A DNA stretch of 48,048 nucleotides, taken from positions 1 through 48,048 of IMG/VR virus record IMGVR_UViG_3300030109_001467; one strand, 5' to 3'. Numbering within the stretch: the first letter of the stretch is position 1; each line of letters opens with the position of its first letter. This document shows positions 1,606 through 48,048 of the stretch, one piece after another. A program made the translations under genes and the position numbers. This DNA comes from a virus. The notes under the pieces were generated by a model. That model worked only from the letters and a program-made list of their open reading frames with translations. It was not told the DNA's origin and made no database searches.

Positions 1606-1998
1606 ATGAGCATATTAACAAAATTATTTTCAGGTGGAGCTACGGATTTAGTAAAGAGTGTAAGTGGGGTTATAGATAATCTACACACATCTAAAGAAGA
1701 AAAGCTTGAAGCTGAAAAGAAAATAAAAGATATGATAATGGGTTACGAAGCTGAAATGCAAAAGCAAGTAACTGAAAGATGGTCGATGGATATGAAGTCG
1801 GACTCTTGGTTATCAAAAAACATAAGACCACTAGTTTTAATATTTCTAGTAGTATCAACAGTATTGTTAGTTTTTATCGATGCTGGTGTTATTGCTTTTG
1901 AGGTTAAAGCTTCATGGGTAGACTTATTACAATTAGTATTAATAACAGTGATCGGTGCTTACTTCGGTGGTAGATCACTAGAAAAAGTAAAAAAATAA
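1606..1998 (+). CDS. Holin of the GTA/3TM type
   Basis: A 130-residue membrane protein. The N-terminal half (1-55) is amphipathic and helical. It is followed by RWSMDMKSDSWLSKNIRPLVL, which matches the hallmark RW..DM.SDSWLS.NIRPL segment of the GTA_holin_3TM family. Clear hydrophobic helices span about 75-92 and 104-121, and the C-terminus is short and basic. Such holins permeabilise the inner membrane so that endolysin reaches the wall. The candidate endolysin is the M15 peptidase at 41104, far away in this linear window but close if the genome map is circular. The leader is A/T-rich with no Shine-Dalgarno site. Confidence 0.82.
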   Translation: MSILTKLFSGGATDLVKSVSGVIDNLHTSKEEKLEAEKKIKDMIMGYEAEMQKQVTERWSMDMKSDSWLSKNIRPLVLIFLVVSTVLLVFIDAGVIAFEVKASWVDLLQLVLITVIGAYFGGRSLEKVKK

Positions 1999-33254: not shown

Positions 33255-33536
33255 ATGGCAAAAGAATTAAATGAAGACACGGGCTTCGTATTAAGTATAA
33301 AAACAATAATTGGACTAGGCTTTGCTGTCGCTACCTTAGCTGGCATGTGGTTTACATTGCAAGCTGAAATAGCCGAGGCAAAAGAACTTCCAATTATTCC
33401 ACCAGATGAAGTAACTAGAATGGAGTTTCAAATGAAAGACGAAATGATACGTAACACTATTATGAACACTCAAAAAGACGTTGAAGAAATAAAAGGTACT
33501 TTAGAAAAAATAGAAGACAAACTTTATAACAGATGA
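33255..33536 (+). CDS. Small membrane-anchored coiled-coil protein
   Basis: A 93-residue protein with one hydrophobic helix at about 15-35 (SIKTIIGLGFAVATLAGMWF). It is followed by a Pro-containing hinge (ELPIIPPDEV) and a coiled coil at 50-93 (KDEMIRNTIMNTQKDVEEIKG). Such N-anchored coils occur among phage spanins and holin accessory proteins, but no lipobox or Pro-rich periplasmic stretch identifies it as such. It is the first gene after promoter-like motif copy 2 and overlaps the next gene (ATGA). Confidence 0.6.
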   Translation: MAKELNEDTGFVLSIKTIIGLGFAVATLAGMWFTLQAEIAEAKELPIIPPDEVTRMEFQMKDEMIRNTIMNTQKDVEEIKGTLEKIEDKLYNR

Positions 33537-33886
33537 AAAAGCTAGATATATCAAATGTGGTGTATGTGCTGATAATTATCTTAATGTTTACCGCGTCGCA
33601 AGTGTTTGGTCAAATAACTGTAAAGCATTTTAACGCTGGATGGAACGAGGCTAATGGTGTTGATTGGATAATGGACTTAAAAGATTGTAACACTAAAGGT
33701 TATATTGATATAGCTAAAGATGCGGATGCACAAAAAAAATATAAAATAGCGGTTGTACCCACTATAATAATATTTAAAGATGGAGAAGAAGTAGCTAGGT
33801 TTCAAGCTGATTTAAGCTTTAAATTATTAGCAACTAGAGAAGAGGTACAAGAAGAAATAGATGAACAATTAATGAGTGATTTCTAA
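33533..33886 (+). CDS. Exported thioredoxin-fold protein lacking CxxC
   Basis: A 117-residue protein. Residues 9-26 form a hydrophobic signal or anchor ending at VFGQ. The rest follows a thioredoxin fold: ITVKHFNAGW (first strand), a helix, then YKIAVVPTIIIFKDGEEVARF with the cis-Pro at 76. Where WCxxC should be, it has WNEAN (37-41), so there is no redox pair; a single Cys52 follows. Bacteroidetes phages carry similar HFNAGW...MDLKDC proteins. It may act as a structural or periplasmic binding module. It overlaps both neighbours by ATGA or TAATGA. Confidence 0.7.
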   Translation: MKKLDISNVVYVLIIILMFTASQVFGQITVKHFNAGWNEANGVDWIMDLKDCNTKGYIDIAKDADAQKKYKIAVVPTIIIFKDGEEVARFQADLSFKLLATREEVQEEIDEQLMSDF

Positions 33887-36090
33887 TGAAGAAAATATTA
33901 CTACTATTATTACTACCAATAATAACTTTTGCACAAAAAGAAGTTGTTATACATATAAAAACAGATAGTTACCCAGGAGAAACTAAATGGACGTTATATA
34001 AAGATGCTTATCAAGGTGACACTTTGTCATATGTTGATTATAATTATTATGACTCGGCTAATTTTATGAACATTGACACGGTTTATATACCTGACAGTAT
34101 AAGTAATATATCTTGGGTTATATTTGATCAATATGGAGATGGTATAACTAACGGTGAGTATTATGTTACTGTATGTGGTGATACAATTATTGATTATCCC
34201 GCTAGTACTTTTACCACAGGGTTAATACACAATAGAGCCGTACCACAATGTATGCCTCAACCACCACCGTTACAAATGGTACCTGCGAAAGTTATAATAA
34301 ATTTAGATCAATACCAAAGTGAAACTAGTTGGGATATAAAAGATACAAATGGAACAACTTACGCTTCTGGCGGTGGTTATAATGCTCAGCCAGATTACGC
34401 TACAGTAGTTGTACCAGTTCAGATACCAAAAGGACCTTTAGTATTTACTATATACGATACTTATGGAGATGGATTAAATGGTAGTTTATGGCAAGGGCAA
34501 GATGGTTCTTATTATCTAAAACAATGTAATGACACATTGATACATGGTACAGATCCAGCTTTTGGTAACGACACTTCTCATGTGTTTATATCTGATTCTT
34601 GTCCACCTATATTAGGATGTACGGACAATGATTATATAGAGTGGAATCCTTTTGCAGATGTAGATGATGGTAGTTGTCAAACATTGAAAATATTTGGTTG
34701 TACGGATTCTACTATGTATAACTATGATCCTAACGCTAATACAATGGAGTTAATAGACACTTGTGTTTACACGTTAGTATTACATGATTTAATGGGTAAT
34801 GGTTGGGTAGGCTCACATTTAAAACTTATACACCCCGATACATCGTATCAATTTACTCATACTGGTGGATTTAATAACGTATATCACGTAGGGTTGACCG
34901 CTCCAGATCCTGTTACATTTAGATTTCATATATCTTCACAAGCTAGTTTAACTACAATAGAGTGTGGGTTTACTTTTATAAACCCAGAAGGTGACACGCT
35001 CATAAGTATACAACCGCCGTTTATACAGCCTTTATTACCATATCACATTATAACAAACTGTGGTAATACTTGTGAAGAAAAAGTATTTGGATGTTTAGAT
35101 CCTTTGGCTATTAACTATGATAGTACTGCAAATACTAGTGATAGTAGTTGTTACTATATACCTGGATGTATGAACTCATCTTATTTAGAATATTATACAC
35201 AGGGGTTTGTGGCAGATTATGATGATGGTAGTTGTGATGTAAAAGCTGTTTGGGGATGTATGGATTCTTTAGCATTTAATTATGATTCTACTGCAAACAT
35301 AGATAATGGAGGATGTGTACCAGTTATATATGGATGTATGGAGAGCTTGGCTTTTAACTACGATCCACTAGCAAACACACCAGATACGTGTGTAGCATAT
35401 TTATACGGGTGTACTGATCCAACTATGTTTAACTTTAATTCATTAGCAAACGCTGATGATGGAAGTTGCATACCATTTGTTTATGGATGTACAGATACAA
35501 CAATGTTTAATTTTAACCCTTTAGCAAACGCTGAATATGACCCTAGTAACTGCGTACCTTATATTTACGGTTGTACTGACCCTAGCATGCTTAACTACAA
35601 TCCTGACGCCAACACAGAGGACTTTAGTTGCGTTGCTTATATTTATGGCTGTATGGATAATACCGCTCTTAATTATGATTCACTTGCTAACACCGATAAC
35701 GGTTCGTGTATCGAGGTTGTTACAGGTTGTATGGACCAAAGCGCTTGGAACTACGATGTCTTGGCGAACGTCCACGATACTAGCACTTGTCTTTATGACG
35801 CTGGTTGTGTTACTGGCCCTGGCATACCTTATTGGTTGAATGATCCTTGTTATGCTTGGGTTATAGAAGTAGATGAGTATTGTTGTGAAAACGAGTGGGA
35901 TGAAATATGTCAACTAACATATAATTATTGTGAAGGAACATTTGTAGGACCTTTACCAAAAAGATTTAATAAAAAACTAATAGCAATTACAGATATACTA
36001 GGTAGACCTGTAAACAATATAACTAAAAACAAACTTATGTTCTACATATATGATGATGGAACAGTAGAAAAGAAAATAATAAAAAAATAA
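33886..36090 (+). CDS. Secreted T9SS-type protein with eleven Cys repeats
   Basis: A 734-residue protein with a signal peptide (MKKILLLLLLPIITFAQ). The N-terminal third holds three FD.YGDG/DLMGNGW units typical of Bacteroidetes secreted proteins. Residues 244-635 carry eleven GC(T/M/L)(D/N)..x.NY(D/N)..AN.(D/N)..SC repeats. Residues about 690-734 (ITDILGRPV...FYIYDDGTVEKKIIKK) match type IX secretion C-terminal sorting signals. In the host, such proteins are moved across the outer membrane and anchored or released. Here it may alter the host surface after infection or help adsorption. The region 35530-35830 is visibly richer in C and G than the rest of the gene, hinting at recombination with host DNA. 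Confidence 0.82.
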   Translation: MKKILLLLLLPIITFAQKEVVIHIKTDSYPGETKWTLYKDAYQGDTLSYVDYNYYDSANFMNIDTVYIPDSISNISWVIFDQYGDGITNGEYYVTVCGDTIIDYPASTFTTGLIHNRAVPQCMPQPPPLQMVPAKVIINLDQYQSETSWDIKDTNGTTYASGGGYNAQPDYATVVVPVQIPKGPLVFTIYDTYGDGLNGSLWQGQDGSYYLKQCNDTLIHGTDPAFGNDTSHVFISDSCPPILGCTDNDYIEWNPFADVDDGSCQTLKIFGCTDSTMYNYDPNANTMELIDTCVYTLVLHDLMGNGWVGSHLKLIHPDTSYQFTHTGGFNNVYHVGLTAPDPVTFRFHISSQASLTTIECGFTFINPEGDTLISIQPPFIQPLLPYHIITNCGNTCEEKVFGCLDPLAINYDSTANTSDSSCYYIPGCMNSSYLEYYTQGFVADYDDGSCDVKAVWGCMDSLAFNYDSTANIDNGGCVPVIYGCMESLAFNYDPLANTPDTCVAYLYGCTDPTMFNFNSLANADDGSCIPFVYGCTDTTMFNFNPLANAEYDPSNCVPYIYGCTDPSMLNYNPDANTEDFSCVAYIYGCMDNTALNYDSLANTDNGSCIEVVTGCMDQSAWNYDVLANVHDTSTCLYDAGCVTGPGIPYWLNDPCYAWVIEVDEYCCENEWDEICQLTYNYCEGTFVGPLPKRFNKKLIAITDILGRPVNNITKNKLMFYIYDDGTVEKKIIKK
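34615..35790 (+). repeat. Eleven in-frame Cys repeats (GCTD...NYDPxAN..DGSC)
   Basis: Coding repeat array inside the secreted protein. Units run about 21-35 residues, each starting Gly-Cys and ending in Cys. The best-preserved units are GCTDPTMFNFNSLANADDG and GCMDNTALNYDSLANTDNG, each followed by SC. The two Cys per unit could form one disulfide each. Units differ at DNA level, so this is an old or diversified array and not a recent tandem expansion. Confidence 0.85.
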
Positions 36091-36093
36091 ATT

Positions 36094-36537
36094 ATGGCAA
36101 TAATTACACCAACACTAACATTAACATCAAACGCTGCTACAGCTGGTACTAATCCAGGACCACTAAGTATAGCTTTGTCTTTATCCGCTACAGACGATAT
36201 AACTGTTACGACTGTTAAAGCTGCTAATATAACAGTTTCAACTACCGCTGCTAGTTTGTTTACAGACGCTCTACAAACAGAGGGTGATACAGCTGGTACA
36301 CACGGTTCTTTTATATACTTTAAAAATACTAGCCCGGCTGATCATGATGTTTATATAGGATTTGAAGCATCAGGAGCTACAGCAGCGGAAATGCAAGCCG
36401 CTGGAGCAGCTACAAGATTAGGTACTTTAAAACAAAATGAGTTTGCGTTTTTTCCTTATGATTTTGCTGGCGATATTACGATCGACGCAGAAAACTCAAG
36501 TGCTACTTTAGAATACTTTTTATTCTCAAGAACATAA
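36094..36537 (+). CDS. Small virion-type protein
   Basis: A 147-residue Ala/Thr-rich protein with no Cys and no signal peptide, starting MAIITPTLTLTSNAATAG and ending AENSSATLEYFLFSRT. The pattern ...FFPYDFAGDITIDAENSSATLEYFLF is one I associate with small tail-associated proteins of marine phages. It sits between two exported proteins but itself looks intracellular or virion-bound. Its stop overlaps the next ATG. Confidence 0.55.
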   Translation: MAIITPTLTLTSNAATAGTNPGPLSIALSLSATDDITVTTVKAANITVSTTAASLFTDALQTEGDTAGTHGSFIYFKNTSPADHDVYIGFEASGATAAEMQAAGAATRLGTLKQNEFAFFPYDFAGDITIDAENSSATLEYFLFSRT

Positions 36538-37655
36538 TGAAAAAGATATTAATAATATTACTAATCATTCTGACATCTTGCGCTGCTACAAAAACCTGTT
36601 GTGGGCAGTTTAGTTATAAAGGATATGATTATGACATTCAAAATATTTTAAAAAATCAATTAAAGTTTTCTACTATATACGGAGCGGTAAACGGTGGTAC
36701 ATCTATATCTGATGTTAAACAGTTTTCAGTTATAGACGGCTTACAAACGTCAATGATAGAAACTCCTTATGATTATTCTTTTACTTTAGGTATAAGAAAA
36801 ATTGCAAGGTTTGGGTATGAAAATAAAGCTAATACTTTTTATGACGGTACTGAGTCTAATTATACAGACGCTGCAACCGTAGGCAAGGTACAGGGGTTTG
36901 AATATTTGTTTGAAATAGATTACGCTAGACAACAAGGTTTAGACTACATAGATCAACATCATTTTATTAGATATAGTTCTGATGACAATTGTGATGGCCC
37001 TTTGTGTATAGATCATTTTGCTGCTAAAGTAGAATATTTAAAAGATGGTTTCGCTGATGTAGAGTATTTCGAGTTATCAGAAAGGTATAGATACAAGAAA
37101 GACAAAAACTTAGCGTTTAGTATAGGTGCTGCACATAGACTAGCAGAACCATACGGTTATGATCCGCTAGAAGAATGGGTCTTGGATAATGGCAATTTGC
37201 ATTACACTTACTTAGCAATACAAGAAGGATATACTATAGATGTTGCAAACAGTGAGTATAAAGATCCAAGCGGAAACACCGTTGCTAACAGTGCTGACGT
37301 TTGGAAGGAGGTTGTTATACCACAAGTACTGTCTGATTATACTACTAGAAAAAGAAACGAATTAAATAGAGTTATACAACATTCTCTAGTTGTAGGATTT
37401 GATTATTACAACTACAGTAAAAGCTACTGGTTACACGCTTGGGGTAATTTATTACCTTATCATTATGATGATGGTGGAGAGTTTTCTTATCACAAATATA
37501 ACAATGGGGAACAGTGGTATGATTATTCTGGAGGAATTATATTTGGTAGAAAAATAGATAAACAATTAGGTATATTTGCAGAAGGCAAATACAATAAGTA
37601 CTGGAATAGAGAGTGGTACGATTTTAAATTTGGTGTTAATTACATAATACGATAA
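36537..37655 (+). CDS. Putative lipoprotein / outer-membrane barrel-like protein
   Basis: A 372-residue protein starting MKKILIILLIILTSCAATKTCCGQ. LTSC at 12-15 fits a lipobox with Cys15 as acyl site, although a second Cys pair follows immediately. The mature part is rich in aromatic and acidic residues, with alternating-strand patterns ending GIFAEGKYNKYWNREWYDFKFGVNYIIR, similar to the last strands of an outer-membrane barrel. It is therefore exported to the host envelope. Function unknown: blocking superinfection or altering surface permeability are guesses. Coupled by overlapping stop/start on both sides. Confidence 0.6.
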   Translation: MKKILIILLIILTSCAATKTCCGQFSYKGYDYDIQNILKNQLKFSTIYGAVNGGTSISDVKQFSVIDGLQTSMIETPYDYSFTLGIRKIARFGYENKANTFYDGTESNYTDAATVGKVQGFEYLFEIDYARQQGLDYIDQHHFIRYSSDDNCDGPLCIDHFAAKVEYLKDGFADVEYFELSERYRYKKDKNLAFSIGAAHRLAEPYGYDPLEEWVLDNGNLHYTYLAIQEGYTIDVANSEYKDPSGNTVANSADVWKEVVIPQVLSDYTTRKRNELNRVIQHSLVVGFDYYNYSKSYWLHAWGNLLPYHYDDGGEFSYHKYNNGEQWYDYSGGIIFGRKIDKQLGIFAEGKYNKYWNREWYDFKFGVNYIIR

Positions 37656-39366: not shown

Positions 39367-39717
39367 ATGGCATACATACAAAAAAATAATCCTTTTGTAA
39401 AAACTAAATGTGGTAGAAGATACGCTCCTCTACAAGCTCAAATAATGGGTGATTTTAAATCTCCTTTTGAGCAGTCAAACAAAAGAACAAAAGGTAAAGG
39501 CAGACATTTTAGAACTTCGGAAGAAGGAGCTGGAATGACAAAGGCTGGAGTTGCTTCTTATAAAGCGGCAAACCCTGGTAGTAAATTAAAAACAGCTGTA
39601 ACAGGTAAAGTAAAACCTGGTAGTAAAGCAGCTGGTAGAAGAAAATCATTTTGTGCTAGATCAAAAGGTTGGACTGGTGAAAGAGGTAAGGCGGCTAGAC
39701 GTAGATGGAAATGTTAG
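39367..39717 (+). CDS. Basic Cys/Gly/Lys-rich phage protein (DUF6321-like)
   Basis: A 116-residue very basic protein. The stretch EGAGMTKAGVASYKAANPGSKL, then TAVTGKVKPGSKAAGRRKSFCARSKGWTG and RGKAARRRWKC, is a conserved pattern in marine phages that I recall as a DUF family (probably DUF6321). Charge and glycine content suggest nucleic-acid or virion association. The Cys residues at CARS and the C-terminal WKC may bind metal. It overlaps the next gene by 13 bases. Function unknown. Confidence 0.6.
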   Translation: MAYIQKNNPFVKTKCGRRYAPLQAQIMGDFKSPFEQSNKRTKGKGRHFRTSEEGAGMTKAGVASYKAANPGSKLKTAVTGKVKPGSKAAGRRKSFCARSKGWTGERGKAARRRWKC

Positions 39718-40232
39718 AAGGATTTAAAATACAAAAATATTTGGATAAAAAACCGCCTAGTGAAAATTCTATTACAACTAAAGGTGAAGTTAAAGAATTA
39801 ACTAAACTACCTATTAGAGAAAAGTTTATAAAAGAAAAAGATGATATTAAAAAATCTTTTGAAAGTATAGTAGGTAAAGAACCGTTGATACAAAAATTAA
39901 TAAATGAGTCTGCACCTATTATAATGAAAATTAAAAAACATCATAATAGACCTAGGCCAAAAGTCATGGCTAAAAAAATAAAAACAAAAATGGAGGATAT
40001 AGAAATGGCCTCAATGAAAACACCTTCTTATCCATCTGGTCACTCGGTTCAAGGAATATTAATAGCTAACGCTTTAGCTGATAAATATCCTAACAAAAAA
40101 GATAAGTTAAAAAAAATGGGTAGAGATATATCATACAGCAGAAGATCTGCTAGAGCCCACTTTAAATCTGATTCATTGTTTGGTGAACAGATAGGTAAAG
40201 ATATGTATAACTATATAAAAAATAAAATATGA
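39705..40232 (+). CDS. PAP2-family phosphatase (soluble)
   Basis: A 175-residue protein with all three PAP2/haloperoxidase signature motifs: K75-x6-R82-P83 (KIKKHHNRP), PSGHS (110-114), and S145-R146-x5-H152-x3-D156. The last two carry the catalytic histidines that form the phospho-enzyme. There is no membrane segment, unlike most bacterial PAP2 enzymes, so a soluble phosphatase acting on small phosphates, nucleotides or exposed lipid head groups is likely. The first 70 residues are helical, basic and of unknown use. Start at ATG 39705, with 39711 as a second option inside the upstream gene's end. Confidence 0.78.
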   Translation: MEMLEGFKIQKYLDKKPPSENSITTKGEVKELTKLPIREKFIKEKDDIKKSFESIVGKEPLIQKLINESAPIIMKIKKHHNRPRPKVMAKKIKTKMEDIEMASMKTPSYPSGHSVQGILIANALADKYPNKKDKLKKMGRDISYSRRSARAHFKSDSLFGEQIGKDMYNYIKNKI

Positions 40233-42512: not shown

Positions 42513-44384
42513 TTATAAGCTTGTTATTTCGCAAGATCCACCGGCACAAGCTAATTCACCGGATAAATCCGTGTTGTCATCAGACTCTACAATTTTAGAT
42601 AAATCTATTTCTTGAAGAGCTTTTGACATTTCATCATACTTAGTTTTAGTAACGTCCTCAAACGGAGCTTGTGTATATGTTCCTCCGTCGTAAGGCAATA
42701 CAGATAAACCATTATAGTTGTCTCTGTTTTTCCACATCCATTCACCAGCTTTTTCCCACTCGTTTTCTTTTAATGATATTGTAGCTGAAACATTGTGAGT
42801 GTTACTTCCTGATTTATGTCCAGGTTTAACCCACTCTGTAGCTATTTTCTTTACACGATCTAAAAGATCAAAAGCAGATTCAGTTCTAATAATAGAACCT
42901 TTTGGTGCGGCCTGTGGTATTTCTATAACCGCAGTATCATGAGGTCTAAAGTATTCATCTTCTATAAGTTCCGGGTGGTGTATAGCAAGATAGTTATAAA
43001 TTGCTTCGTTTTTACCCACGCGCATTCTACGGATGTAATACTTATTATGCCAAGCATGTATACCTGATGATGTTCCGAGTACTAGAGATGTTGTGCCCGC
43101 AGGTTTAACGCACGTTGTACGGGCTGCAGATTTAATACCTATAGTCTTAGCTGTCATTCTATTCATCATTTTAACATGGTCAGCGGCTTCATGTACATTT
43201 AATTTAAGAACCTTGCCAGAGGCTATTCCTGTCATTGACACTCCTATAAGAGCATCTTTTTCAGTGGTCTCTTGCCAAACTTCTCTTAAATAATGAAACT
43301 CTGTGTAACCAGCTTGTAACGTACCTATAAATGAAGCAGCAGCAACTCTATCGTTTAATTCCTCTTGCGTGTCTACATCTGATACGTTTACTTCACATAA
43401 GTTACAAAATTGAAAAGGACGAAGGGCTATTTCACAACATGGATTAGTTCCCCAGTCTTTATCGTTATTAAAATATATACCAGGTTCTCCAGAACCAGAT
43501 AACTCTATACGTTTCCATAAGTCCATAAAAAAGTCTTTAGTTATTTTATGTCTCATAAGTACCGCAGAGTTATTTGCTCTACCTCTTTGTGGATTAACTT
43601 CCCACCAATTACCTGATTTACACGAAATCATTTCTTCGTCGTACGCTGAAAATAGCGATATAAGCGCTGCCCTACGTATACCACCGGCCAAAACGGCATC
43701 GGCAATATGACATATAATATCATGGACTTCCAACGACGAGAGTTTTTCTCCATCTTGTTTTGCATCTAATATTCCTTTAATTTTCACTAAACACTCTCTT
43801 AATGGTTGCGGTCCTGGTGCTTTTCCTCCAGAGGTCACGAGACGTGCTCCCTTGGGTCTAATATCAGAATAATCAAATTTGATCTTAGATGATCTCTTAG
43901 AGCCTAAATAAGACTTAATTAAAACTTTTATTGCGTCTGACCAGCCTTCAATGCTATCACCAATAACAAATCTACGTTTTCTTACAGCATGGGGCTTTAT
44001 TATTTCTGGTAGCTTTTTAATGTTATGTAATTGTACTGAGTAACCTACACCACAACCTGATAACAATAAAAACATAACTTCACTAAAAGCATCAATATGG
44101 TCAATAGGCAAATAGGCACAATTATAAAGTCTATTAGGACTAATTTCAATAGGCTTGCCACCGAATTGCAGCGATCGCATTGACGGGAGGACTTTCTTTT
44201 CATATACATATTTATAATAAGTGTTTATATCGTTTTCTAAACTTGGATATTTTCTTACATGCATAGCTTTATTACGATCAACTAATTCTTCCCAAGTTTC
44301 TCTTCGTTGTAACTCAGGAATATATTTAGCATATTTCATATGCACTGTTATATCCGATAGTATTTTATTATTTATTTCTTTCAT
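42513..44384 (-). CDS. Class II (B12-dependent) ribonucleotide reductase, monomeric type
   Basis: A 623-residue enzyme making deoxyribonucleotides with adenosylcobalamin. Cysteines fit the Lactobacillus leichmannii RTPR pattern: Cys89 (LYNCAYLP), the thiyl/acid motif NPCCEI (Cys316, Glu318; the usual Gly is Cys317 here), Cys327 (FCNLCEVN), and a C-terminal CAGGSC pair (613, 618) in the same CxxxxC spacing used for re-reduction. GCGVGYSV (110-117) and PAGTTS (428-433) are further conserved loops. It is shorter than RTPR (about 739), mainly from a reduced N-terminal part. Overlaps the nuclease gene upstream. Supplies dNTPs for phage replication. Confidence 0.88.
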   Translation of the reverse strand: MKEINNKILSDITVHMKYAKYIPELQRRETWEELVDRNKAMHVRKYPSLENDINTYYKYVYEKKVLPSMRSLQFGGKPIEISPNRLYNCAYLPIDHIDAFSEVMFLLLSGCGVGYSVQLHNIKKLPEIIKPHAVRKRRFVIGDSIEGWSDAIKVLIKSYLGSKRSSKIKFDYSDIRPKGARLVTSGGKAPGPQPLRECLVKIKGILDAKQDGEKLSSLEVHDIICHIADAVLAGGIRRAALISLFSAYDEEMISCKSGNWWEVNPQRGRANNSAVLMRHKITKDFFMDLWKRIELSGSGEPGIYFNNDKDWGTNPCCEIALRPFQFCNLCEVNVSDVDTQEELNDRVAAASFIGTLQAGYTEFHYLREVWQETTEKDALIGVSMTGIASGKVLKLNVHEAADHVKMMNRMTAKTIGIKSAARTTCVKPAGTTSLVLGTSSGIHAWHNKYYIRRMRVGKNEAIYNYLAIHHPELIEDEYFRPHDTAVIEIPQAAPKGSIIRTESAFDLLDRVKKIATEWVKPGHKSGSNTHNVSATISLKENEWEKAGEWMWKNRDNYNGLSVLPYDGGTYTQAPFEDVTKTKYDEMSKALQEIDLSKIVESDDNTDLSGELACAGGSCEITSL

Positions 44385-44838
44385 TTATTAATTCTATTAC
44401 TTTATCACATTCTTTTTGATTCTGAGGTTTATATAAAGTCACATGTTCCATATGTTCTTTTACAAACTTTTTAAACATTTTCCATCTTATTGGAAATGAT
44501 TCATTAGCTCTTCCTTTGCATTCTATTATAAATGAATCACTTATAAAATCAGGTGTATATTTAATATTTTGTATCTTTTTTTGACCTCTATTAACCATAT
44601 CACCTTTTCCGTTAGCTTGTCGTTCATAAGAATCTACATTGAATAAAAAATCTTCTTGTAGTACAAACGTAGCTCCTTCATATACAGAGTGTATCTTAGC
44701 TTTCTTTAAAGCTTGGTACATATACTTCTCTAAACCTGAGGCAAAGGTTATCCCGTCAAAAGTAACTTTCTTACTTCTGACAGGGCCTTTTCTTCTTTTA
44801 AAACGTTTCTTCATATCTATCGTCTTTAAACTTATCAA
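44368..44838 (-). CDS. T7 endonuclease I-like (DUF1064-type) nuclease
   Basis: A 156-residue protein with the PD-(D/E)xK layout of T7 gp3: Glu37 in FASGLEKYM, then YTPDFISDSFIIECKG with Asp97, Glu106 and Lys108. T7 endonuclease I reads SGLE...YTPDF...ETKG, so the match covers every catalytic residue. By family it cuts Holliday junctions and branched DNA, clearing recombination intermediates before packaging. Start is Met1 (44838) or Met9 (44814); both overlap the upstream gene. The basic N-terminus (KKRFKRRKGPVRSKK) fits DNA binding. It overlaps the reductase gene by 17 bases. Confidence 0.85.
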   Translation of the reverse strand: MISLKTIDMKKRFKRRKGPVRSKKVTFDGITFASGLEKYMYQALKKAKIHSVYEGATFVLQEDFLFNVDSYERQANGKGDMVNRGQKKIQNIKYTPDFISDSFIIECKGRANESFPIRWKMFKKFVKEHMEHVTLYKPQNQKECDKVIELINERNK

Positions 44839-45115
44839 TTAAAGATTCTTCAGATAAGTCCTGTAGTTCGTCACGTGCTGCTTGTATGTATAGCACAGCG
44901 TCCATAAGCTCTTCTTGAACATCATTAAGATATTTTTGTAAGCCTTTCATCTTAAGTCTACGTTCATCATCTAGCGTTGAGCCATACTTAGCATAACCAA
45001 CATCTGAACGTTTAACAAATTTATCAACAACGCTTCTAACTACAGGATCTCTAAATCCATATTCTTTTCTTGACGTGATACCTGATTTGGCATCTGATAT
45101 TTCTCTACTTGACAT
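44798..45115 (-). CDS. All-alpha NTP pyrophosphatase-type protein
   Basis: A 105-residue helical protein with VDKFVKRSDVGYAKYGSTLDD, then WL-type helix residues and QEELMDAVLYIQAARDEL. EELMDA is the EExxD metal motif seen in MazG/dCTPase-like all-alpha NTP pyrophosphohydrolases, and the KYG.TL.D loop is common in phage members. It may hydrolyse dCTP, dUTP or dATP/dGTP to monophosphates. Together with the MazG-like domain at 45118 and the hydroxymethylase at 46053, it would shape the dNTP pool. Substrate not readable. Confidence 0.6.
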   Translation of the reverse strand: MSSREISDAKSGITSRKEYGFRDPVVRSVVDKFVKRSDVGYAKYGSTLDDERRLKMKGLQKYLNDVQEELMDAVLYIQAARDELQDLSEESLIDKFKDDRYEETF

Positions 45116-45117
45116 AA

Positions 45118-46056
45118 TTAATCTTTTTTAAATGTTCCGTTAACCATCTTTCCAGTTCTGTTTTTAATCTCGTAATAAGCTTGGTCAATACAACCTTCAA
45201 TAGGCTCACCGATAAGCTCGGCTAAATTAACTAACACAACAACACAATCGCCAATACCATCAATGGCTTCCATATCGTTACCCTTTAATATAGCTCTACA
45301 AGTCTCGCCAACCTCTTCAACAAGTTTTAATGCTTGTGTTTTAGGATCACCTTTGTCATACAAACCTCTTTCATCAGCCCACTCTCTAATTAATTCAAAC
45401 TGGGGATTTGGCATGCACTCGCAAGGGTTGTTTTCATCACAGCACTCAAAGTCCATTGGTTTAGCTGATCGCTCACTTGCGCCCGCTGGAGATAAAGCAC
45501 CTGATCTAGTTTTACCGTTATATTGATCTACTAAATTCATTTGCTTAGCATTGTCTAACTCGTGATGACTATAAACATCATGGTTATCAAACCATCTAGC
45601 AAAAGCTTTATTGTACACGTAACACCTGTTGTTTGTAAACTGAGATGTTTTAACATTATCCATTATCCAATCAATTGATTTTTTAGTAATTCCAACTGGA
45701 CCACTGTCTGTCTCCCATTGCATACCTATTTTATCCATAAGTTGCCCTTTTAGTTTATTGACTGGACAAGGGAATGTCGTAGTCATTTCCGTTACATTTA
45801 TTCTCATATTATTTATTCTTATTTGGTTTACTGGTTTATATAAATCTTTGTAAAGTTTTCTATCAACTCTATAGCCTAAAGCTTTTTGTAAGGCTATTTC
45901 TCTTTGTGAGACCAAATCAATATCTGTAGTAGACATTATAACTTGATATTCATCTTTATTATAGCCTTGTTGATGTTCAACTCTTTCCTCAAGATCTGTC
46001 GTTACCCCTATTTTCTTACCCGGGATATGGTATAAGTAGTACATTTTATCTATCAT
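45118..46056 (-). CDS. GIY-YIG-like / Cys-rich / MazG-like fusion protein
   Basis: A 312-residue protein in three parts. Residues 5-60 (YYLYHIPGKKIGVTTDLEERVE, later QREIALQ) look like a divergent GIY-YIG nuclease domain in which GIY reads YLY and YIG reads KIG; the conserved Arg25 and a later Glu are present. Residues about 204-214 are ECCDENNPCEC, a possible zinc site. Residues 220-300 form a MazG-like pyrophosphohydrolase with EEVGE (247-251) and EAIDGIGD (263-270), the EExxE...ExxD metal motif. It starts with an ATGA overlap with the hydroxymethylase gene, so the two are made together. Confidence 0.65.
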   Translation of the reverse strand: MIDKMYYLYHIPGKKIGVTTDLEERVEHQQGYNKDEYQVIMSTTDIDLVSQREIALQKALGYRVDRKLYKDLYKPVNQIRINNMRINVTEMTTTFPCPVNKLKGQLMDKIGMQWETDSGPVGITKKSIDWIMDNVKTSQFTNNRCYVYNKAFARWFDNHDVYSHHELDNAKQMNLVDQYNGKTRSGALSPAGASERSAKPMDFECCDENNPCECMPNPQFELIREWADERGLYDKGDPKTQALKLVEEVGETCRAILKGNDMEAIDGIGDCVVVLVNLAELIGEPIEGCIDQAYYEIKNRTGKMVNGTFKKD

Positions 46057-46703
46057 ATTTTATCGTTATATAAATGCATATTGTGTGCGAAATGATAATA
46101 TACACCCGGTTCAATATTTAATTCATTAGAGACCATCTTTTGCAGCTTAGAAAAACAATATTGGTCATTACAAAAACCAAACCATAAATCATTACTACGC
46201 ATTGTTACGCACATATCAAGTCTACCATGTAATATTGTAAACTGCACGGCGTAGGTACAAGGCGTGTCTGTCTTATAATCTGGATGTTCTTTACCATCGT
46301 ATATAGATATACAAGCTTGTCTAGTCTCAGGATTATCTTTTAATAGACCAACAATATAACCTAGTTGTGTTGTGTGGTTGTAACCACGCTGCCATTGATA
46401 ACCGTAGTTAGAATTAACATTACCTTGTCGATCAGCCATACGTTTCCATATTTCAGGAACTTTACCATACAGATCGCCTAGTTTAGCTATGTTGCGATCA
46501 CCAGATAAATACCATTGCCATTCAGCTTCAGCATAATCTTCTTTCCAATTACGTTCTCTGTTTATTATCTTGTTGTCTTGTGAGTCTGTAATATATACAC
46601 CTACGTTAAACAAAGCTTTAGTACCTGCAAAGTCAACACCGTCTTGTATTATTCTATCATGTAAGTATTCGTAAGCGTCGTTTGCTGTTCTAAATTTATG
46701 CAT
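46053..46703 (-). CDS. ThyA-family dCMP hydroxymethylase-like enzyme
   Basis: A 216-residue enzyme from ATG 46703 (MHKFRTANDA), chosen because AAGGAG lies 6 bases upstream; a longer frame to 46763 would overlap the upstream gene further. Catalytic Cys149 sits in TDTPCTYAVQF. MRSNDLWFGFCND matches T4 gp42 (MRSNDVVFGFRND), including Asp180, where thymidylate synthases have Asn. This Asp selects cytosine. NSNYG and HNMHLYND complete the fold. The protein ends soon after HLY, shorter than T4 gp42. It probably converts dCMP to 5-hydroxymethyl-dCMP. Thymidylate synthase is the alternative. Confidence 0.75.
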   Translation of the reverse strand: MHKFRTANDAYEYLHDRIIQDGVDFAGTKALFNVGVYITDSQDNKIINRERNWKEDYAEAEWQWYLSGDRNIAKLGDLYGKVPEIWKRMADRQGNVNSNYGYQWQRGYNHTTQLGYIVGLLKDNPETRQACISIYDGKEHPDYKTDTPCTYAVQFTILHGRLDMCVTMRSNDLWFGFCNDQYCFSKLQKMVSNELNIEPGVYYHFAHNMHLYNDKI

Positions 46704-46887
46704 AGTGTTCTCCTTTATATTTAATATAACTAGAAAAATCTTGTATTGTAAGCTCGCTAACACCTGGTGTGATTCTAAAATATGTTTTTGACTTACCGTT
46801 CTTAGTTAATGTAATTGTTTTATTTTGTATATTTTCTCCATTTGTATCTTTATATGATATCGTTTTTTGTTTTAATGTATTATCCAT
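46696..46887 (-). CDS. Small unknown protein upstream of hydroxymethylase
   Basis: A 63-residue protein (MDNTLKQKTISYKDTNG...) with a beta-rich, Lys/Thr-rich composition and a C-terminal TIQDFSSYIKYKGEHYA. It overlaps the gene before it by 8 bases and the hydroxymethylase gene after it by 8 bases, so it is embedded in the operon. No motif recognised. The overlaps and the absence of other use of this DNA support it. Confidence 0.55.
   Translation of the reverse strand: MDNTLKQKTISYKDTNGENIQNKTITLTKNGKSKTYFRITPGVSELTIQDFSSYIKYKGEHYA
46710..46715 (-). promoter_or_regulatory. Shine-Dalgarno site deciding the hydroxymethylase start
   Basis: AAGGAG on the minus strand, 6 bases before ATG 46703. 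This is the clearest Shine-Dalgarno site I noticed. Most other genes have A/T-only leaders. It lies just upstream of the 8-base overlap with the preceding gene and fixes the start of the dCMP hydroxymethylase-like gene. Confidence 0.75.
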
Positions 46888-47164
46888 CTTTATTCGTATT
46901 TAGTTTGTTAAAATAATATTTATAATATTCTATAACTTTATTATAAACATCTCCATCTTCATATCTATTAGGATCGGTGTGCCACTTGCTTTTGTTGACT
47001 TTTATATCTATTTGCCAATAGCTAAACTCATGCTTCCAATCAGGTGATATACCTATTTTAATACCGTTTTTAATAACCATGCCTACTATATCTAACATCT
47101 CTCTTGTCCAATTAAATGGAGGAGGTTTTTTAGTAGGGGCTTTATTCCATTTGTTCCAAGCCAT
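46880..47164 (-). CDS. Small unknown protein
   Basis: A 94-residue protein starting MAWNKWNKAPTKKPPPFNW, rich in Trp, Lys and Tyr. It contains MLDIVGMVIKNGIKIGISPDWKHEFSYWQIDIKVN and a C-terminal helix VYNKVIEYYKYYFNKL. Its ATG overlaps the helicase stop by one base (TAATG), so it is translationally coupled to the helicase. No family recognised. Confidence 0.6.
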   Translation of the reverse strand: MAWNKWNKAPTKKPPPFNWTREMLDIVGMVIKNGIKIGISPDWKHEFSYWQIDIKVNKSKWHTDPNRYEDGDVYNKVIEYYKYYFNKLNTNKDG

Positions 47165-48048
47165 TATTCCCAGGGCATTGGCTCTGTCTCTGCAATAGCA
47201 TCAACGTGTGGTACAAAGCTACCAGATCGTGGCTCCCACGTAAAATGAGATTCAGCACCGTTTTCACCAAGGTTTTGAAACTTAACCTTAAGTACTTTAA
47301 CCTTAGTTGTTTTAGCGTCATAGTCTCTGTGTACTAATAAACCGTGGTAACTAGCATCGTACCATTCACCACCACCTTTAATATTGTACATTGTAGGCTC
47401 TTCCATTTTACCGTCTTGGCCTTTGTACATTTTGGTAGGATGAGCCACAATAAATGTAAGCACGTCGTACTTTTTACAAAAGGCTTCAATCTTAGCTAGG
47501 TAATCCATAGTATAACGGTTTACATCATCTGAGTGTGCATTTGTATCTCTAATCTTATTAAACGGATCAAGTACTAAACATTTAATACCTTTACGTTTAA
47601 CTAGCTCAGCGCCTTTACGTAACACGGCTTCAAGGTTATACTTATCCATATCAATAAAGTAATAGTTATCATTAACATGATTAGTTACTTGTTCCCACTT
47701 GTTACCATCTATATCATCTACACGTGGCATATCCTGCCAGTGTTTACGCATTAATTTGTGCGCGTGTAAATAGACTGGTTGGTTTTCTGGACTAGCATAC
47801 GCAGTTTTCCAACCGTAAAGTTGATTATATCCCACAACCATTTGGTCAACAAAGTCAGACTTGCCGCTACTAGGTACACCGGTAACAGTAATAAACTGGC
47901 CGGTGTAAGTACTAAAAATACTATCAAAGTTTTTAAGTCCGATTTGAAATCCGGGCTTAAATCCGTTTTTAACAAAGTCTTTAAGTTCATCTTCTATATC
48001 TTTTAATGTTGATACATTTTCTAGCGGAACAGGACGCGCGGTGTGTAT
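47164..48048 (-). CDS. Twinkle / T7 gp4-like replicative helicase (N-terminus outside window)
   Basis: The frame is open to the right edge, adding about 69 residues before the first internal Met. The visible part is a RecA-like helicase domain: GQFITVTGVPSSGKSDF with Walker A GVPSSGKS at 47857-47880, YASPENQP, Walker B region CLVLDPFNK, and FIVAHPTKM, where the His is the sensor seen in DnaB/gp4 helicases. It unwinds DNA 5' to 3' as a hexameric ring at the fork. A primase half may lie upstream. It leads the minus-strand operon visible here. Confidence 0.85.
   Translation of the reverse strand: MHTARPVPLENVSTLKDIEDELKDFVKNGFKPGFQIGLKNFDSIFSTYTGQFITVTGVPSSGKSDFVDQMVVGYNQLYGWKTAYASPENQPVYLHAHKLMRKHWQDMPRVDDIDGNKWEQVTNHVNDNYYFIDMDKYNLEAVLRKGAELVKRKGIKCLVLDPFNKIRDTNAHSDDVNRYTMDYLAKIEAFCKKYDVLTFIVAHPTKMYKGQDGKMEEPTMYNIKGGGEWYDASYHGLLVHRDYDAKTTKVKVLKVKFQNLGENGAESHFTWEPRSGSFVPHVDAIAETEPMPWE

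Follow-up and report, generated by a model that had tools for sequence, protein, structure and literature searches.

The locus carries a putative phage-encoded cargo gene of the type IX secretion system (T9SS), which is flanked on both sides by genes for exported proteins (Table 1). The window analysed, meaning the whole stretch of 48,048 bases, spans an IMG/VR virus record completely and has linear ends. The open reading frame with its signal peptide, three YGDG/MGNG units, eleven GC...C repeats and C-terminal tail, all reported in an initial annotation, was confirmed exactly in the sequence; the exported neighbours and the Cys domain at residues 640-682, the most conserved part of the cargo, were absent from that annotation. 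The YGDG/MGNG units lie near residues 83, 193 and 303, and the GC...C units start at residues 244, 271, 402, 427, 457, 483, 508, 534, 562, 588 and 614, with a spacing near 26. The motif GC[TMLV] occurs 13 times in the cargo, against at most 4 times in 2,000 shuffles, and the protein contains 35 Cys residues in total. Its extreme C-terminus is the tail LIAITDILGRPVNNITKNKLMFYIYDDGTVEKKIIKK.

Table 1. Features of the cargo locus and of the surrounding genome, with positions in the window
Feature	Position	Strand	Basis or remark
Holin	1606..1998		
Giant protein, 3,076 aa	23977..33207		Relatives annotated as structural proteins
Cassette gene: 93-aa protein, single TM segment at the N-terminus, coiled-coil-like periplasmic part	33255..33536	+	Conserved beside cargo; read from sequence
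Cassette gene: exported thioredoxin-like protein	33533..33886	+	Profile search points to thioredoxin fold; stop overlaps cargo start
Predicted phage T9SS cargo gene, 734 aa	33886..36090	+	ORF, ATG to TAA; 65 viral loci with relatives
Signal peptide MKKILLLLLLPIITFA, cleavage before Q17	33886..33933	+	Sequence
Beta domain 1, YGDG motif, residues 17-118	33934..34239	+	AF2 pLDDT about 80-90
Beta domain 2, YGDG motif, residues 130-240	34273..34605	+	AF2 pLDDT about 80-85
GC...C repeats 1-2	34615..34764	+	Sequence
Beta domain 3, MGNGW motif, residues 292-396	34759..35073	+	AF2 pLDDT about 80
GC...C repeats 3-11	35089..35790	+	Sequence; identity of up to 58-60% with repeats from host-like Flavobacteriales genomes
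Conserved Cys domain PYWLNDPCYAW...EYCCENEWDxICQ, residues 640-682, PYWLNDPCYAWVIEVDEYCCENEWDEICQ	35803..35931	+	Densest run of invariant alignment columns
Short C-terminal tail (predicted sorting tail), 39 residues	35971..36087	+	TIGR04183 tails instead in sister phages
Small protein encoded between cargo and barrel, not among the fixed cassette genes	36094..36537	+	Found at some of the loci only
Cassette gene: outer-membrane beta-barrel, 372 aa, lipobox-like start LTSCA	36537..37655	+	At least 567 relatives in viral contigs
PAP2-type phosphatase	39705..40232		Late region
B12-dependent ribonucleotide reductase, thymidylate synthase and MazG-like genes	42516..47841	-	

Profile searches with hmmscan gave no useful match to the cargo in Pfam, NCBIfam or PHROGs, and the first, whole-protein scan of genome contigs returned no relatives. 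Foldseek placed ferlins and galectin on top at TM-scores of 0.05-0.16, which we read as a beta sandwich and nothing more. By sequence pattern, the Sec signal peptide expected of T9SS cargo is present, and a signal-peptide-like N-terminus was found in 104 of 109 tailed relatives, the exceptions being mainly truncated or having an upstream start. The number of GC...C repeats per cargo varies from 2 to 21 among relatives.

The genome is podovirus-like, with a co-chaperonin-like gene, the terminase large subunit, the portal and several virion proteins matched in PHROGs. Gene order is shared with Cellulophaga phi38:1 (Pervagoviridae), Flavobacterium elemo phages and Maribacter Panino, and the homologous terminase, portal and virion genes in order mark the window, by gene homology and order, as a Pervagoviridae-like podovirus. 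No integrase was found in 30 related records, which may be incomplete; its absence fits a virulent life style. The cargo region lies in the late operon near a tail-fibre-like gene and the giant virion protein encoded upstream of the cargo, and an M15 peptidase gene is close by. A consensus scan for Bacteroidota promoters found four sites, none of them adjoining the cargo and its conserved neighbours. The giant protein has at its C-terminal end two units rich in Cys and His (CxxxxxKGTRCKNK...YCTIHAK), similar in appearance to small zinc-binding motifs. Relatives of the PAP2-type phosphatase often lie between the cassette genes at other loci, and the genes for nucleotide metabolism are on the opposite strand (Table 1).

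A conserved four-gene envelope cassette

Comparison of loci showed that three genes around the cargo are conserved while other neighbours vary. Together they form a cassette of an outer-membrane beta-barrel, a one-TM coiled-coil protein, a thioredoxin-like protein and the T9SS cargo, whose reading frames touch, overlap or lie close by within one operon. For what the initial annotation labelled a virion region, the more fitting term is an envelope cassette within the late operon. The cassette probably belongs to a large group of marine podoviruses of putative Flavobacteriales hosts.

The thioredoxin-like protein lacks the CxxC active site of an active thioredoxin. Both active-site Cys are replaced by Asn, and the resulting N-A-x-W-N-x-x-N is invariant in 22 sequences, so that the protein is not an ordinary disulfide exchanger; such a redox-dead thioredoxin (WNxxN) is common to the phage group. 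The barrel was modelled with AF2 at pLDDT 69.7 and pTM 0.67, and Foldseek matched the model to NanC, FapF and similar barrels at low TM-scores; matches to viral barrels were also obtained. Mean column identity in the barrel alignment is 72%. Its C-terminal GKYNKYWNREWYDFK is nearly invariant, and its starts alternate between lipobox-like ones and ordinary signal peptides. The barrel gene stands before or after the cargo, depending on the locus. As a candidate for a cognate T9SS PorV or PorP/SprF, the barrel was rejected, as no NCBIfam family matched at E <= 1.

To avoid circularity, a second scan was started from the barrel; it gave at least 567 viral relatives, and 80 loci were kept. Each of the 37 barrel-found loci of 14 kb or more had a single T9SS-tailed ORF; where none was present, the locus was shorter. 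In both scans taken together, there was exactly one T9SS-tailed ORF per locus in the 109 loci where any was found (98 with a short tail and 11 with a type A tail, some contigs being counted twice). The starts of the cargo proteins at two pairs of loci (L007 and L031; L030 and L039) resemble those of the thioredoxin-like or the barrel gene, which suggests, at the level of sequence, that signal peptides are swapped within the cassette. A scan of 15 bacterial genomes, made without a positive control, found no barrel homologue. The isolated Pervagoviridae and Elemovirus phages (Cellulophaga phi38:1, Flavobacterium elemo, Maribacter Panino), whose hosts are Flavobacteriia, share the order of the terminase, portal, GroES-like and virion genes with the window, but unlike it they have yielded none of the four cassette genes; relatives of the thioredoxin-like, barrel and one-TM proteins were all absent.

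The short C-terminal tail and its exchange with type A

The initial annotation regarded the C-terminus as a T9SS tail that should match TIGR04183 or PF18962 over the last 80 residues, and it named the lack of a significant match as grounds for refutation. The window protein failed this check, with no match to either model at E <= 1 nor to PHROGs at E <= 0.1. Similarly, 37 isolated short tails searched at E <= 10 matched no NCBIfam model (TIGR04183 included) and left PF18962 unmatched, with scattered unrelated Pfam models only. Taken by itself, and on that criterion, this result would refute the T9SS assignment, but comparison with orthologues reverses that outcome. The part of the claim that relied on a direct profile match was lost, whereas the assignment gained indirect support from type A swaps, from the occurrence of the tail in T9SS-positive Flavobacteriales and from profile kinship.

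Most of the 65 viral relatives of the cargo end in the short tail. At the same junction, six orthologues (L009, L014, L030, L039, L041 and L060) carry a type A tail scoring 32.5-37.1 bits with TIGR04183 and 33.7-38.5 bits with PF18962, over both curated cut-offs (23 and 27 bits, respectively). When tail type was placed on a tree of cargo bodies built with the tails left out, at least four changes were counted; the count is rough, since the bootstrap of this tree is not settled and repeats may recombine. The clearest case is the pair L041 and L055: their DNA is about 93% identical across 1,890 ungapped nt, the two sequences part sharply at the linker that follows the last Cys, and one member then has a type A tail and the other a short tail. 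The same was seen in bacteria, where the bodies of L128 and L175 are 74% identical over 487 aa and the tail types differ. As short and type A tails replace each other at one junction, they most likely do the same job.

A pattern search for the short tail in genomes gave 193 relatives, from which 78 loci were kept, nearly all of them in marine Flavobacteriales or Bacteroidetes MAGs, and in Portibacter. In all 75 readable bacterial proteins the tail forms the last 35-45 residues, and the bodies are unrelated, mostly with signal peptides. The 15 genomes with short tails have 1-51 copies each, next to 31-134 type A tails; PorV was found in 15/15 and SprA in 12/15, although PorV-family matches alone are not T9SS-specific and the three assemblies without SprA may be incomplete. 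The short tail is thus distributed like a C-terminal sorting tail that otherwise unrelated proteins share in T9SS-positive genomes. In a test of little power, it was never seen in a T9SS-negative genome. Of 296 genomes sampled evenly across the phylum, two had the tail, both already among the 15, which marks it as a clade-restricted signal.

Comparison of the short-tail profile with type A by hhalign gave an E-value of 9.5e-5 and a score of 22.9; the highest score among 40 column shuffles was 13.9, and the reversed profile scored 12.3. The DxxGR part and the final DG...K strand are kept, while the YPNP start is absent. By these profiles, the short tail is related to type A, though distantly and in shortened form. 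It resembles type A (TIGR04183/PF18962) in that orthologues carry the latter at the same junction and in that it aligns with the motif-B-like part and the C-terminal end; unlike type A it is about 37-40 aa long, has no YPNP motif and is matched by no model. When the phage short tails were compared with the six phage type A tails, only the linker TWxGPLPxR aligned, and it was the larger bacterial set that gave the signal. A sequence search of the PDB with the short tail gave chance matches only.

The tail, LxKIxDxLGRE...NxLLFYIYxDGTVEKKII, occurs in up to 51 proteins per marine Flavobacteriales genome and is matched by no Pfam or NCBIfam model. A 2023 review names T9SS types A, B and C only (PMC10202324). 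Judged by these sequence comparisons, the short tail is probably an unannotated T9SS sorting class. If so, the annotated secretome of marine Flavobacteriales would grow by up to about 50 exported proteins per genome.

Proposed role of the cassette and relation to known systems

We consider it likely that the host T9SS exports the cargo as part of the four-gene cassette. The cargo anatomy, its conservation, the late-operon position, the tail swap and the tail distribution were all observed; export itself is deduced by comparing sequences, and the short tail is a predicted T9SS signal. In the proposed sequence of events, the signal peptide would carry the cargo through Sec and the repeats of this disulfide-rich protein would fold within the oxidising periplasm. 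The short tail would then be recognised by the host T9SS, probably via PorV as for type A cargo, and the protein would end on the outer surface or be released from there. A function at the surface is plausible for it. By coating the infected cell, the cargo could hide surface receptors or compete with them, keeping other phages out and preventing released progeny from sticking to the cell or its debris. Such masking of receptors on the infected cell is the most likely role, proposed tentatively. Flavobacterium columnare gld/spr (T9SS) mutants resist phage V156 (PMC9233685), which indicates that T9SS-exported surface parts can be phage receptors, as appears to be the case in Flavobacterium. A precedent for the masking strategy and a model for the proposed role is phage T5 Llp (PMC9586334), which the phage directs to the envelope, where it prevents use of the receptor; unlike the cargo, Llp is a small early lipoprotein with another export route and no homology. 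The late position among structural genes suits early superinfection exclusion less well, T5 Llp being an early protein.

The main alternative is an aid to release, with the cassette weakening or crossing the outer membrane or surface layer at lysis. In the corresponding division of labour the one-TM coil would be spanin-like, the barrel would sit in the outer membrane and the cargo would loosen the surface coat. The TM segment and coil do resemble the topology of an inner-membrane spanin, many barrels have lipobox-like starts, and the cassette is late with an M15 peptidase nearby. Yet no cassette gene matched a spanin, holin or lysis family, the holin is encoded elsewhere, and known lysis systems need no T9SS cargo, so that we regard both the release role and this assignment of its parts as unlikely. 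It is less probable still that the cargo is a virion component, i.e. a tail or adsorption protein in or on the particle whose repeats bind the host. Such a role would agree with the late-operon place adjoining the giant virion protein and the tail-fibre-like gene. A cyanophage virion structural protein also has a short match to the same GC...C repeats, which do not by themselves mark T9SS cargo or prove secretion. However, the Sec signal peptide of the tailed relatives and the sorting tail speak against incorporation into the particle, exported proteins are unavailable to virion assembly in the cytoplasm, and the neighbours are envelope proteins.

Two further readings concern the link to the T9SS. 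That it serves another pathway or is a folding cap, with T9SS uninvolved, would explain why no T9SS profile matches it; type A and short tails have replaced each other repeatedly in phages and bacteria, and their profiles are related, which makes this improbable. Slightly lower still do we rate a decoy, in which the cargo would flood the translocon, lower the export of host adhesins or receptors and halt gliding and further adsorption without any surface action of its own. Phage resistance of the F. columnare T9SS mutants and the fact that the tail is the host's own are consistent with such an effect, but the three beta domains and the Cys domain, all of them conserved, together with 2-21 repeats per cargo, exceed the needs of a decoy. 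Least probable of all, to a degree that we find it hard to credit, is a lysogenic conversion gene (moron) benefiting the carrier cell. Bellas et al. (2020) proposed such roles for Cryophage cargo (PMC7468147); here, the related records gave no integrase and the gene is fixed in the late operon and is not an optional insert.

Redecoration of the surface of infected Flavobacteriales cells, the putative hosts, is thus what the cassette phages probably bring about. The initial annotation held phage-encoded T9SS cargo to be undescribed, but as a kind it is already known: Bellas et al. (2020) reported type A cargo in Cryophage (PMC7468147) and de Jonge et al. (2019) reported T9SS domains in BACON-repeat phages (PMC6949934). 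The Cryophage genes are likewise phage genes with T9SS C-terminal sorting domains and a presumed hijack of the host T9SS. They differ in being variable (endoglucanase, GH39, PA14), in their type A tails and in lying in flexible islands, whereas here a single fixed gene, in which no enzyme domain is recognised and which mostly has the short tail, lies in a conserved four-gene cassette. New are the fixed cassette in a large group of uncultured phages, the uncatalogued short tail and the exchange between it and type A; in open-licence PubMed Central papers we found no description of a conserved phage cassette with T9SS cargo or of the short tail. T9SS is a main route by which marine Bacteroidota place enzymes and adhesins on the surface, and a fixed viral cassette aimed at it in hundreds of contigs would make phage envelope remodelling in Bacteroidota directly testable. 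The evidence leaves evenly balanced the wider proposition that a large group of virulent marine phages depends on the host T9SS for a dedicated and conserved surface-remodelling cassette and that the short tail is an undescribed T9SS signal class, carried by a large part of the proteins that marine Flavobacteriales export.

Repeats and origin of the cargo

A search with the repeats, as proposed in the initial annotation, found matches in host-like Flavobacteriales genomes. These genomes encode many proteins with GC...C repeats (identity up to 58-60%) and YGDG domains (30-46%), several of which end in type A tails. It therefore appears that the phage took over a host T9SS surface protein and rebuilt it. 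The secreted GC...C proteins of marine Flavobacteriales differ from the phage cargo in being chromosomal and often much larger (to about 4,000 aa). Related GC...C repeats were also observed in phage proteins encoded upstream of the cassette at three loci (L034:543-2741, L046:348-3887 and L047:74-4207). These have starts unlike signal peptides and no PHROG match, and are candidate virion fibres that share repeats with the cargo.
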